In this document: positions 1-32,836 of the stretch, in pieces
Numbering within the stretch: position 1 is the stretch's first letter
Layout: each line of letters opens with the position of its first letter
Source of the DNA: Parcubacteria group bacterium GW2011_GWB1_45_10
Lineage (GTDB): Bacteria; Patescibacteriota; Minisyncoccia; UBA6257; Brennerbacteraceae
Assembly (NCBI GenBank): GCA_001001185.1
Contig: LCKC01000004.1
Location: 1-34,150, forward strand
Direction of reading: 5' to 3'
DNA: 34,150 bases
Notes under the pieces: model-generated
Seen by the model: the letters and a program-made list of their open reading frames with translations, nothing else
The model's database searches: none
What the model was told of the DNA's origin: nothing
Position numbers and translations under genes: made by a program

Positions 1-344
1 CACCGCCATCCTTTTCCGCCAGTTGGCGGATTCGGAATAGCAACGGCAGAGGTTTAGAGAAGGATTTTAAGGAGGGGCGGAAAAGTAATCCGAAGTTTTA
101 ACGAAGGGTACTCGCCCTCTCCGCAGCAACGAAGTTGCGAGGATGGGAGAGTCCCGCAACTGCTTGCGGGACGTCGGGATTCGAAAGGCGGAGCAGTGTC
201 CCGAGCCCACGAGGGACTGTGAGCCAGGGTCGTGAAATTTTGCGAGCGGCGGCAAGCAAAATATTCCTGACCGAATCTCGCCCTCTCCGTCAGACCTGCG
301 CGGCGATTAAGCAAGGTCGGCTAATTAATTTCAAAAAAACTTTT

Positions 345-3607: not shown

Positions 3608-5772
3608 ACACTCGTTCTGAACATCAGGAAAAAAGCCTAACAGCCGGAAATCACGGCGAAAATCTTTACGCCTGCCCGATGCATCCGGAAATAAAATCGG
3701 ATATGCCCGGCAAGTGTCGGCTTTGCGGCATGGTTTTAGTCCGAAATCAGATATCAGATATCCGATATCCGAAATCCGACAAGCACGCGGGACATTCTTT
3801 GGAGATGTTCATTAAAAAATTCTGGCTGAGCCTGGCCTTGACCCTGCCAGTGGTTTTTGTTTCTGACGTGGTCCAGGAATTTTTTGGTTTTAGCGTTGAC
3901 AAAAATGTTTCCCAGATTGTTTCCTTGATTCTCGGTTCCGTCGTGTTTTTTTACGGCGGCAGTATTTTTATTAAAGGCGCAATCTCCGAACTTAAATCAA
4001 AGCTGCCGGGCATGATGAGTCTGATTGCCCTGGCAATCAGCGCTGCGTACATTTTCAGTGTTTTTGCGGTTTTGCTGAAAAGCGGCGAGTCGCTTTTTTG
4101 GGAGCTGACGACCCTGATTACGATTATGCTTTTGGGCCATTGGCTGGAGATGAGAGCGGTTAAAGGCGTTCAGGACGCGCTGAAAGAGCTGTCAAAGCTT
4201 TTGCCGGACAAAGCCGAGCTGGTTTTAAGCAACGAACTGTCAAAAGGAACCAATATTAAAACAAAACTGGTCAATATTTCTGAGTTAAAGGTTGGCGACG
4301 TGATTTTGGTTAAGCCGGGAGAAAAAATTGCTGCTGACGGCAGGGTGGCGCAGGGAAACTCTGAAGTTGACGAGTCAATGGTGACTGGCGAATCTCGTCC
4401 GGTCAAAAAGCAGGAATCAAGCGAGGTTATCGCCGGCACGATTAACGGCGACGGCAGTTTGCTGGTCAAGATTGAAAAAATCGGCGAAAACACTTTTTTA
4501 GCCGGAGTGATGAAGCTGGTGGCTGAAGCTCAAGCGTCAAAATCAAAGCTTCAGGTTTTGTCTGACAAGGCGGCTTTTGTTTTGACCTTAACGGCTTTGG
4601 GCGTTGGCAGTCTGGCGTTCGGCGCCTGGCTGTTTTTGAAAGCCGGGTTTAATTTTGCTTTGGAAAGATTAGTTTCGGTTTTAGTGATTGCCTGTCCGCA
4701 CGCTCTGGGTTTGGCGGTGCCCTTGGTGGCCTCAATCTCCACGACCAAAGCCGCGCAAAACGGTTTTTTGGTCAAGCAAAGACTGGCTTTGGAATCTGCC
4801 CGAAATATAGAGATTGTCTTGTTTGATAAAACCGGCACGCTGACCCAGGGAAGTTTTGGCGTGGCGGGCATTATTCAAAACCCGGAAAGCAAAACCCGGA
4901 TTGACGAAAACTCAATCCTGCAGCTGGCGGCTTCACTTGATTTTTATTCCGAGCATCCGGCCGCCAAAGCGCTGGTTGCTGAAGCGCGAAAAAGAAATCT
5001 TGAGCTCTTGAAAGTTGATAATTTTCAGCGTTTGCCGGGCAAAGGCGTAAAAGGGAACGTCAATGGCAAAGAACTTTTGGTCGGCGGTGAAGAAATTACC
5101 GGCAGTGTTTCAAACAGCAACTTTCAAACAACCAGTGAAGTTAAAAAACTTTCAGCACAGGGGAAAACCGTTATTTTTGTTATTTCGGCAAATGAAGTTC
5201 TTGGCGCGATTGTTTTGACGGATATGATTCGTGATGAATCAAAACAAGCGGTTCACGAACTGAAACAAATGGGAATAAAAACCGCGATGATTACCGGCGA
5301 TTCAGTTGAAGTCGCCCAATGGGTGGCCCGGGAAATCGGCATTGACGAATTCTTTGCCAGAGTTTTGCCCGAACAGAAATCAACAAAAGTCAAAGAGCTG
5401 CAGTCCCGCGGTTTGAAAGTGGCCATGGTCGGCGACGGCATTAATGACGCGCCGGCCCTGACTCAGGCTGACCTGGGCGTGGCCATTGGCGCCGGCACGA
5501 ATGTCGCGATTGAATCAGCCGGAATTATTCTGGTGAAAAACGATCCGCGCGACATCGTGAAGATTATCAAACTGTCCCGGATGACTTATAAAAAAATGAT
5601 GGAAAATCTGTTCTGGGCGACTGGCTATAATGTCGTGGCCATGCCTTTGGCCGCCGGAGTTCTGGTTTTTAAAGGGATTTTGCTTCAGCCGGCGCTGGCG
5701 GCAGTCTTGATGTCTTTGAGCACGGTTATTGTCGCTTTTAACGCTTTGCTTTTGAAAAGGGCGAAACTCTAA
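3604..5772 (+). CDS. copB: P1B-type heavy-metal (copper-type) translocating ATPase with N-terminal heavy-metal-binding domain
   Basis: YACPMHPEIKSDMPGKCRLCGM, VIACPHALGLAVP (CPH), DKTGTLTQG and GDGINDAPAL motifs; ATGA overlap with the upstream gene. Confidence 0.92.
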   Translation: MNTRSEHQEKSLTAGNHGENLYACPMHPEIKSDMPGKCRLCGMVLVRNQISDIRYPKSDKHAGHSLEMFIKKFWLSLALTLPVVFVSDVVQEFFGFSVDKNVSQIVSLILGSVVFFYGGSIFIKGAISELKSKLPGMMSLIALAISAAYIFSVFAVLLKSGESLFWELTTLITIMLLGHWLEMRAVKGVQDALKELSKLLPDKAELVLSNELSKGTNIKTKLVNISELKVGDVILVKPGEKIAADGRVAQGNSEVDESMVTGESRPVKKQESSEVIAGTINGDGSLLVKIEKIGENTFLAGVMKLVAEAQASKSKLQVLSDKAAFVLTLTALGVGSLAFGAWLFLKAGFNFALERLVSVLVIACPHALGLAVPLVASISTTKAAQNGFLVKQRLALESARNIEIVLFDKTGTLTQGSFGVAGIIQNPESKTRIDENSILQLAASLDFYSEHPAAKALVAEARKRNLELLKVDNFQRLPGKGVKGNVNGKELLVGGEEITGSVSNSNFQTTSEVKKLSAQGKTVIFVISANEVLGAIVLTDMIRDESKQAVHELKQMGIKTAMITGDSVEVAQWVAREIGIDEFFARVLPEQKSTKVKELQSRGLKVAMVGDGINDAPALTQADLGVAIGAGTNVAIESAGIILVKNDPRDIVKIIKLSRMTYKKMMENLFWATGYNVVAMPLAAGVLVFKGILLQPALAAVLMSLSTVIVAFNALLLKRAKL

Positions 5773-15759: not shown

Positions 15760-15831
15760 GGGCATGTAGCTCAACGGCAGAGCAATCGTCTTATACACGA
15801 TTGGTTCCAGGTTCGAGTCCTGGCATGCCCA
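15760..15831 (+). tRNA. tRNA-Ile(UAU)
   Basis: 72-nt cloverleaf; anticodon stem ATCGT/ACGAT with 7-nt loop CTTATAC, anticodon TAT. Confidence 0.85.
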
Positions 15832-15858
15832 CTGTCTGTTATGGTGAGGCCGGGGGTT

Positions 15859-15886
15859 GTTGGGATATCCATGAGGATATCCCAAC
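15859..15886. repeat. Perfect 12-4-12 palindrome GTTGGGATATCC-ATGA-GGATATCCCAAC
   Basis: Exact inverted repeat read from sequence. Confidence 0.9.
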
Positions 15887-15918
15887 TCCTCCAGACGCAC
15901 ATGGTTAAGCGGGTAGAC

Positions 15919-15978
15919 ATACGATTGGTTCTTGGTTGTTTAATTACCCGTGAGGGTAATTAAACTCTGGCATGCCCA
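15919..15978 (+). repeat. Degenerate tRNA-Ile(UAU) 3' half copy with perfect 12-4-12 palindrome GTTTAATTACCC-GTGA-GGGTAATTAAAC at the T-loop position
   Basis: ACGATTGGTTC and TGGCATGCCCACT match the tRNA tail; palindrome at 15938-15965. Confidence 0.8.
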
Positions 15979-16036
15979 CTTTGATTAAGAACGAATTTTA
16001 TGACTGATGCCTTTTTGATTAGATTATTTTTGTGAG

Positions 16037-16900
16037 ATGATCCAAGAACTGCGCTTGAACAATCATTTGTATCCGGCATTGCTCAAAGAGATTAATGATC
16101 CGCCGGAAAAGATTTTTTTGCGCGGCGAGCTGAAAGCTGATGAGCCGTGTTTTGCGATTGTCGGCACCAGAAAGCCCTCGGCTTACGGCATTGAAGCCGC
16201 CAAATATTTCGCCCGCGGCTTGTGTGAAGCCGGATTCACGATTGTTTCCGGTTTGGCTTTGGGCATTGACGCGGTCGTCCATCAGGAGGTTTTGTCCTGT
16301 AAAAAAAGGACGATTGCGGTTTTGGGTTCTGGTATTGATTCGATTACGCCGATGACCAACCGGAAAATCGGCGAAGAAATCCTGAAAACTGGCGCGATTA
16401 TTTCCGAGTTTCCGGAAAACTACCCGGCGATGAAGCAGAACTTTCCCCAGCGGGACAGAATTATGAGCGGCTTGAGCTACGGCGTTTTGGTGATTGAGGC
16501 CCAGCTTCGGTCGGGCGCTTTGATTACCGCCCGGCTCGGGCTTGAACAGGGCCGTGAAGTTTTTGCCGTTCCCGGAGAGATTTTTTCTTTGAACTCCAAA
16601 GGCGCGAATCATTTGATTCAGGAAGGCGCCAAGCTCGCGGCCTCAATTGAAGACATTTTGGAGGAGTTTCAAAACATTCCCGAGATTCAAAAAATGATTT
16701 TAAAGCAAAACAATCTTTTTGATTTGGATGAAAAACATAAGCGCGTTTTGGAGTTTTTGTCCGAGCCCAGGACCATTGAAGAGCTTTGTGAGATGACCAA
16801 GATGTCTTCAAACGAACTTGGCTCCTTGTTGACAATTCTTGAATTAAAAAATATATTAAAGCGCAGGCAGGACGGAAGGTTTCAGAGAAACAATTCCTAA
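16037..16900 (+). CDS. dprA: DNA processing protein DprA
   Basis: IVSGLALGIDAVVHQ, LGSGID, PQRDRIMSGLSYGVLVIEA motifs. Confidence 0.95.
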   Translation: MIQELRLNNHLYPALLKEINDPPEKIFLRGELKADEPCFAIVGTRKPSAYGIEAAKYFARGLCEAGFTIVSGLALGIDAVVHQEVLSCKKRTIAVLGSGIDSITPMTNRKIGEEILKTGAIISEFPENYPAMKQNFPQRDRIMSGLSYGVLVIEAQLRSGALITARLGLEQGREVFAVPGEIFSLNSKGANHLIQEGAKLAASIEDILEEFQNIPEIQKMILKQNNLFDLDEKHKRVLEFLSEPRTIEELCEMTKMSSNELGSLLTILELKNILKRRQDGRFQRNNS

Positions 16901-20078: not shown

Positions 20079-20088
20079 CTTATTTTTA

Positions 20089-20685
20089 ATGGACAAAAGA
20101 AATCGTCCCAAAACAATCAGTCTCGATCCGGCGCTTCGCGCCTATGTTGTGGGAGTTGCTCTCGGCGACGGCAATCTTTCCAATCCCAACGGTCGAGCTG
20201 TCAGGTTGCGGATAACCTGTGATACGGCTTACCTAAGATTAATAGAATCTATTTGCGCGGCGTTGAGAAAACTGCTTCCGGAAAATAAGATTTCTGTCCA
20301 TAATCAGAAAGGTAACTGTGTTTACGTAAGCTGTTATTCAAATCACTGGGAAAAATTATTGGGATGGAGGGCGTCCGGTGGCAGTAAGGCGAAACAAAAA
20401 ATTCGCGTGCCGCACTGGGTCATGAATCGTAGAAACACCATGATTTCTTGTTTAAAGGGTTTAGTGGAAACAGACGGCCCTGTGTATTTTGACAGGGGTT
20501 ATCAGATGGTGAATTTTACGAGCAATGTTAAATATTTAATCAATGACGTTTACTCTTTGTTTTCGGAATTAGGTTATCAACCCAATTTGTATTCAAGAAG
20601 GATTAGAACTGGCACAAAGTATACAATCCGATTGTCAAAAAACGTTCCTGATTTTTTGGCGGAATTTAAGCCATTAAAACAGTGA
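20089..20685 (+). CDS. Free-standing LAGLIDADG-type homing endonuclease-like protein
   Basis: Two LAGLIDADG-like motifs: AYVVGVALGDGNLS and CLKGLVETDGPVYF; start trimmed to the ATG downstream of tRNA-Leu. Confidence 0.8.
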   Translation: MDKRNRPKTISLDPALRAYVVGVALGDGNLSNPNGRAVRLRITCDTAYLRLIESICAALRKLLPENKISVHNQKGNCVYVSCYSNHWEKLLGWRASGGSKAKQKIRVPHWVMNRRNTMISCLKGLVETDGPVYFDRGYQMVNFTSNVKYLINDVYSLFSELGYQPNLYSRRIRTGTKYTIRLSKNVPDFLAEFKPLKQ

Positions 20686-32600: not shown

Positions 32601-32676
32601 GGTGGCTGTAGCTCAGTCTGGTTAGAGCGCCAGGTTGTGGCCCTGGAGGCCGGGGGTTCGAATCCCCTCAGTCACC
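32601..32676 (+). tRNA. tRNA-His(GUG)
   Basis: Cloverleaf; anticodon loop TTGTGGC; G-1:C73 pair typical of tRNA-His. Confidence 0.94.
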
Positions 32677-32682
32677 CATTAT

Positions 32683-32708
32683 AAAACGCAAACTGCTTTG
32701 CGTTTTTT
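32683..32708 (+). terminator. Hairpin aaaacgcaaa-ctgc-tttgcgtttt plus T run
   Basis: 10-bp perfect stem directly after tRNA-His. Confidence 0.65.
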
Positions 32709-32799
32709 GAGGGGATTCGAAAGACGGAGCTTGTCCCGAAGGGACGCGAGGCGGGGTCGCGAGTTGCGAAGCAAACTTGTGACCGAATCCCCTCAGTCA
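32709..32799 (+). repeat. Element bounded by inverted GAGGGGATTCG / CGAATCCCCTC and ending in a second copy of the tRNA-His 3' tail
   Basis: CGAATCCCCTCAGTCACCC repeated exactly after the tRNA; related element at about 176-290. Confidence 0.75.
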
Positions 32800-32836
32800 C
32801 CCTTCGACAAGCTCAGGGTTTACTGAGTTTTGAAAT

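Follow-up and report, generated by a model that had tools for sequence, protein, structure and literature searches.

Small structured elements behind tRNA genes, joined at the T-loop, in a Parcubacteria bacterium and its relatives

Behind tRNA genes lies a family of small structured elements whose junction point is the T-loop, and the interpretation first given to this DNA, in which palindromes are inserted site-specifically into the T-loop of two tRNA-tail fragments, needs to be widened to take in that family. Few mobile elements are known from Patescibacteria, whose genomes are very small. We analysed a stretch of 34,150 nucleotides (the window) from Parcubacteria group bacterium GW2011_GWB1_45_10 (contig LCKC01000004.1, positions 1 to 34,150), which holds two perfect palindromes, A and B, behind a tRNA-Ile(UAU) gene and a well-formed element behind a tRNA-His gene (Table 1). 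Going by sequence, we favour with moderate confidence a reading in which gene-less elements enter the T-loop at T55/C56 and are moved in trans, A, B and a third hairpin, C, being hairpins of this kind at the T-loop position in shortened or divergent copies.

Results

Palindromes behind tRNA-Ile(UAU)

The locus is bordered by the tRNA-Ile(UAU) gene on one side and a dprA-like open reading frame (16037-16900) on the other, with an ftsH-like frame upstream; both names come from reading the translations. Palindrome A (GTTGGGATATCC-ATGA-GGATATCCCAAC) and palindrome B (GTTTAATTACCC-GTGA-GGGTAATTAAAC) each have perfect 12-bp arms around a 4-nt loop, 28 nt in all, and the preliminary description had their coordinates and letters right. 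It also matched fragment B, in which the second palindrome lies, to the tail of the adjacent tRNA-Ile, and this is indeed a genuine copy of its 3' half, identical over 14 nt (CTGGCATGCCCACT) and agreeing at 15 of 17 positions in ACGATTGGTTCYWGGTT. The match proposed between fragment A and tRNA-His holds for the segment AGGCCGGGGGTT and fails on the 3' side, where TCCTCCAGACGCA differs from tRNA-His and the sister species G001, of the same genus, has GGCCGGGGGTTCGAATCCCTCCAGATGCACCA; the letters thus point to the 3' half of another, decayed tRNA and not simply to a tRNA-His tail. As for the point of insertion, the inserts had been placed where the CGA of TTCGA would be. The T-loop position is correct, and both palindromes begin where C56 would stand; what is replaced in both fragments, however, is the six nucleotides CGARTC of the T-arm, by 28 nt plus a T, and C56-C61 are absent from the tail copies at tRNA-Ile.

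Table 1. Features of the window, and two related hairpins elsewhere in the same genome
Feature	Position	Strand	Evidence	Remark
tRNA-Ile(UAU) gene, intact	15760..15832	+	ARAGORN; Rfam RF00005, 73 bits	Upstream of fragments A and B
Fragment A, 5' T-stem-like strand AGGCCGGGGGTT	15847..15858	+	Sequence; aligned to copy GGCCGGGGGTTCGAATCCCTCC in G001	
Palindrome A, 12-4-12, loop ATGA	15859..15886	+	Hairpin scan; palindrome-free counterpart in G001	T-loop position
Fragment A, 3' T-stem/acceptor-like strand TCCTCCAGACGCA	15887..15899	+	Aligned to TCCCTCCAGATGCA in G001	
Fragment B, copy of tRNA-Ile anticodon-stem/variable/T-stem segment	15921..15937	+	Direct repeat D1, 88%	
Palindrome B, 12-4-12, loop GTGA	15938..15965	+	Hairpin scan	T-loop position
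Fragment B, copy of tRNA-Ile 3' end (TCTGGCATGCCCACT)	15966..15980	+	Direct repeat D6, 14/14	
tRNA-His(GUG) gene, intact	32602..32677	+	ARAGORN; empty site in G001:C18	Bears the well-formed element
H1 hairpin AAAACGCAAACTGCTTTGCGTTTT of tRNA-His element	32683..32706	+	Same motif in many relatives	
Anti-T strand (TGAGGGGATTCGAA)	32708..32721	+	Score 14 with own tRNA, 10 with best other tRNA	Reverse complement of own tRNA T-loop/T-stem
Three-way-junction core P1/P2/P3	32710..32794	+	Model R2, 87.5 bits, E 8e-20	Among the model's 13 sequences
P3 hairpin, 28 nt	32756..32783	+	Same place as palindromes A and B	Directly before tail copy
19-nt direct repeat, tRNA-His C56 to 3' end (CGAATCCCCTCAGTCACCC)	32784..32802	+	Repeat scan; G001 comparison	
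Second element core, tail like tRNA-Ser 3' end	174..282	+	Model R2, 55.3 bits, E 2.4e-11	Outside the model; tRNA would lie off the contig
Hairpin C	Contig 20 (C20), 4511-4538			Tail copy of tRNA-Thr(GGU)
Hairpin D, imperfect/decayed	C6:17194-17221		Relaxed scan	Behind a tRNA-Met

Related hairpins in the genome and in a sister species

The preliminary description had proposed a search of the genome for further palindromes at T-loop positions and a comparison with sister strains, and both gave a positive result. The 496-kb genome, scanned for perfect hairpins with arms of at least 11 nt and loops of 3-8 nt, contains 87 of them, ten of the 12-4 type, and exactly three lie in the T-loop of a tRNA-tail copy, which argues that the tRNA-tail position noted for A and B is not due to chance. 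The third, hairpin C, stands behind tRNA-Thr(GGU) between groEL and an rpmG-like frame, in the context GGTCGTGAGTCCG-28 nt-TACCTTCGGCT. A 34-nt stretch of C, with AGTCCG of the tRNA-Thr T-arm inside it, has a counterpart in hairpin D (score 48; the best of 300 random segments reached 33); judged by this repeat, D is a copy of C that has taken the tRNA-Thr flank along to a different locus. The centre common to A, B, C and D is YCC-RTRA-GGR or a decayed form of it. Repeats of a tRNA's own 3' end follow the genes for Ile (13 nt), His (19), Asp (12), Ala (13) and Thr (10) in this genome.

In G001 the same tRNA-Thr locus bears an anti-T strand, AGAATCGGAC, and a hairpin, AGCATTAATACCC-GTGA-GGGTATTAATGCT, followed by TTTCGGCT; its arms are entirely different from those of C and the hairpin persists, implying that it has been kept through compensating changes. 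Behind tRNA-Ile(UAU), G001 has the A sequence without its palindrome and with TTCGAAT intact (GGCCGGGGGTTCGAATCCCTCCAGATGCAC), so that palindrome A was either gained or lost within the genus. Degenerate tRNA copies that lack a palindrome also occur behind tRNA-Ile(UAU) in several families (loci L012 in G023, L020 in G034 and L003 in G001).

The A/B/C type of hairpin is clear in only two genomes of one genus: the exact pattern GTTN9RTGAN9AACTC gave A and B as its only palindromic matches in 61 genomes, and the sole clearly related match of model R1, made from A, B and C, in 244 genomes was the sister's tRNA-Thr hairpin, its matches in G016 and G039 adjoining no detected tRNA. A contig scan with an over-long pattern returned 5 records, and both of those with a group name were Patescibacteria/Parcubacteria. 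Transcription terminators were considered for A, B and C and ruled out, as each hairpin lacks a following T-run.

A well-formed element behind tRNA-His

The insert behind tRNA-His(GUG) comprises 106 nt plus the 19-nt repeat, and the sister species provides its exact empty site (G000:C4, the window's contig, is occupied and G001:C18 is empty). The other tRNA-His of G001 is occupied, and the counterpart of that gene in this genome is without a tail repeat. Relatives of the insert are found in many genomes behind tRNA-His, Lys, Leu, Arg, Ala, Gln, Ser, Gly, Val and Asp as well as behind tmRNA. Near the second element core of the window, a tail-like TACTCGCCCTCTCCGC at about 110-125, before the core, resembles a tandem arrangement at an off-contig tRNA-Ser.

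Elements of this family are gene-less and about 105-185 nt long, which leaves no room for an integrase gene inside them. A well-formed copy has this order: intact gene, leader, anti-acceptor remnant, H1 hairpin (GCAAACTGCTTTGC), anti-T strand, GYCGGAG, P2, CGAGRCGGGG, P3 and tail copy. Read as its reverse complement, the anti-T strand gives the T-loop and 3' T-stem of the gene that it follows; it pairs with the tail copy as P1, which together with the internal hairpin P2 and with P3 makes a three-way junction; P3 directly precedes the tail copy and so stands in the T-loop's place. Covariation was counted in 13 hand-picked copies, where 90% of the cells pair and there are 18 double-changed pairs (9.4 in shuffles) and 52 double-changed cells (15 in shuffles), and in 57 distinct copies, where 87.5% pair and there are 330 double-changed cells against 97 in shuffled and 43-74 in slid alignments, the alignment itself being fitted to the model and leaning towards it. 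The match of an anti-T strand to its own gene exceeds its match to other tRNAs (mean 10.1 against 7.0, p 6e-7, for 36 cases among which the copies are non-independent), and does so at tmRNA too.

Target point and spread

Within the order the core model R2 matches 55 of 244 genomes, and among genomes drawn from the phylum 38 of 333 (E 1e-4), with up to 11 copies per genome. Most of the fetched core matches (23 of 30) lie behind a tRNA or tmRNA, as do 6 of 10 further loci, most of the others being near a contig end; one tRNA-Arg carries a tandem triple copy. The target point is narrow: of 20 core-bearing elements with a tRNA context, 14 have a direct repeat beginning at C56, 4 have one beginning at R57 and 2 have one that begins five bases further on. 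The repeat copies 19-21 bases of the gene end, finishes at or just past that end and includes CCA where it is encoded. The target is the 3' end of topA in a pair of related genomes, where most differences between the gene ends TIPERCSNKACPNHNPHKLNKK and TIPERCSNKACPHHNPHKLKK are synonymous; one end looks as though it had come in with the element, which would resemble integrative elements that bring their own version of a gene end. At these loci (L207 and L208, in G193 and G197) a reverse transcriptase resembling a diversity-generating retroelement stands a few hundred bases away from the topA-end element.

With this family A, B and C share a place directly behind GGTT and a tail copy, and A and B have the 28-nt length of the tRNA-His P3. 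H1, P2 and the anti-T strand were looked for at the tRNA-Ile locus and none was found, and R2 gives no match to A, B or C even at E 5. Because H1 and P2 are missing, C56-C61 are lost and the core model does not match, we call them a related or parallel type; they are probably derived from or parallel to the three-way-junction family and not members of it. At the loci examined Rfam 15 returns nothing besides tRNA at gathering score and at E up to 5, and it has no family for the element; nor did we find such elements described in the literature searched, which covered few subscription journals and preprints.

Candidate enzymes and carriers

Among the 244 genomes the Y1 transposase (PF01797) shows no association with the elements (15 of 55 element genomes, 55 of the 189 others, p 0.87), and it is absent from this genome and its sister. 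Reverse transcriptase (PF00078), also absent from both, occurs in 30 of 55 against 77 of 189 (p 0.09), a weak trend and no clear association. For LAGLIDADG_3, counted by hand, the figures are about 20 of 55 against 92 of 189, with no positive association, and XerC/D-type recombinases are too widespread for an association based on presence. Viral contigs, phages and plasmids searched for a carrier yielded no match. The window contains a LAGLIDADG_3 homing-endonuclease-like frame (20080-20685; PF14528, E 1e-8) directly behind tRNA-Leu(CAA), with no tRNA-Leu tail repeat within 4 kb after it.

Discussion

These results keep one half of the proposal that palindromes are inserted site-specifically at the T-loop. 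The T-loop is a preferred and precise position, as seen in hairpin C, in the tRNA-Thr hairpin of G001 and in element repeats that start at C56 or R57. Working tRNA genes, however, are not interrupted: an intact tRNA always lies upstream, and the hairpin sits within an extra copy of its 3' end. We infer the movement of the elements from static genomes, with one clean pair of empty and occupied sites. A small non-autonomous mobile element would insert at T55/C56 of the T-loop and, by bringing in the downstream gene end or duplicating it, would leave the host tRNA whole. The enzyme that moves it would come from elsewhere and may be a site-specific recombinase that works on the folded strand; this is the mechanism that we favour as the most likely, a candidate for which no enzyme was found among those searched. 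Since the hairpin is only one arm, P3, of the structure in well-formed copies, the moving unit is probably the whole element together with its tRNA tail. The arms of A, B and C would drift while each hairpin is kept or re-made perfect. Any of three routes may have given rise to A and B, namely insertion of a palindrome by itself, its growth inside a decayed copy, or the decay of a larger element, and sequence alone does not separate a role as RNA from one as single-stranded DNA.

Several of the same observations could be explained by mutation, if A and B had no relation to the structured elements and were tandem tRNA copies in decay, their palindromes made by template switching or quasi-palindrome correction at a hairpin-forming T-arm. 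Palindrome-free decayed tRNA-Ile copies do stand behind tRNA-Ile(UAU) in other families (G023 and G034), the sister has A without its palindrome, the core model finds neither A nor B, and perfect arms with a drifting sequence are what hairpin correction is expected to leave. Such a process would nevertheless have to arrive independently, three to five times, at a hairpin of one length, one loop type (RTRA) and one position; D, which takes C and its tRNA-Thr flank to another locus, requires copying; and mutation in place leaves unexplained why P3 of the element family stands at the corresponding position. We regard mutation as unlikely.

We give distinctly less credence to the idea that the fragments are small RNAs with an extended T-arm, a T-stem plus a 12-bp hairpin under a GNRA-like cap, which might be kept for what they do in the cell, perhaps in the processing of tRNAs or by acting as decoys of tRNA enzymes. 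In favour are the good folding of fragment A (z -4.5), the GNRA-type loops of B and C, a P1 that mimics an acceptor/T-stem minihelix, and the persistence of the tRNA-Thr hairpin in the sister with all arms changed; presence is nevertheless patchy even between sister species, the tRNA types are many and there are triple tandem copies, all of which suit a mobile element more than a host gene. Chance hairpins, or an artefact of assembly, are hardly credible: the genome is a draft of 25 contigs, yet the arrangement recurs with other sequences in an independent sister and in many further genomes, hairpins of this kind number just 87 in 496 kb, and at the level of the family chance is already refuted.

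Several known systems resemble the elements in part. Repeats of the tRNA 3' end occur in E. coli at tyrT, behind the tRNA-Tyr gene, where each repeat (RtT RNA, RF00391) has about 19 bp of that end. This is the nearest likeness known to us, yet there it is a single locus, whereas here there are many tRNA types, a conserved three-way junction and an anti-T strand; the RF00391 covariance model gave no match at two loci at gathering score or at E up to 5. Phages, islands, ICEs and P4-like satellites that target tRNA genes use the 3' half as their target, restore the gene and leave a direct repeat of the 3' end with an edge at the T-loop. The elements are like them in the 3'-end repeat flanking the insert, the intact tRNA and the empty site in a close relative, and unlike them in being about 105-185 nt long, without an integrase and folded over the whole insert. 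They share with MITEs, and with REP/BIME sequences and their RAYT (Y1), that they are short, palindromic, gene-less, multi-copy and presumably moved in trans; they differ in that the target is a gene 3' end with a 19-21-nt repeat and that Y1 is not associated. The likeness to integron attC sites is functional only, in that a single strand, folded and with some bases left unpaired, might serve as a substrate for recombination; no cassette genes were seen between the repeats and no GTTRRRY core was recognised by eye.

It is possible, and we offer it tentatively as the less probable case, that these elements are an undescribed gene-less, structured mobile class that homes to tRNA T-loops across Patescibacteria and carries a guide-like, target-matched strand together with a gene-end copy by which the target stays functional, with A and B as minimal forms that hold hardly anything beyond the hairpin at the target point. 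If true, a gene-less element spanning the phylum, with an exact tRNA target point and a fold that is conserved, would be a genome parasite or recombination substrate of a new kind, and the target-matched strand raises the testable question of nucleic-acid-guided insertion. For annotation, such inserts yield false tRNA tails and false open reading frames in draft genomes.

Other repeats

Both tRNA-Asp loci, C6:17590 in this genome and C10:28280 in G001, have an 86-nt insert plus a 12-nt tail repeat edged by TTCGACAAGCTCA-type repeats, an insert type different from the three-way-junction elements. An inverted repeat, AATCCCGTTAGAARTARTC...TTCTAACGGGAT, recurs in contigs 5, 6 and 2 of this genome, behind tRNA-Gly-UCC, tRNA-Arg-CCG and tRNA-Met. 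The palindrome AATATGTCTTAWCTAACGATCGTTAGWTAAGACATATT has four dispersed copies (L054:4536-4575, L056:3789-3828, L056:4458-4497 and L066:8862-8897), and contig 17 of G001 holds three close GCCnnTTnTCCC-AATT-GGGAnAAnnGGC palindromes (L085:7553, 8114 and 8845), which may be protein-binding sites.
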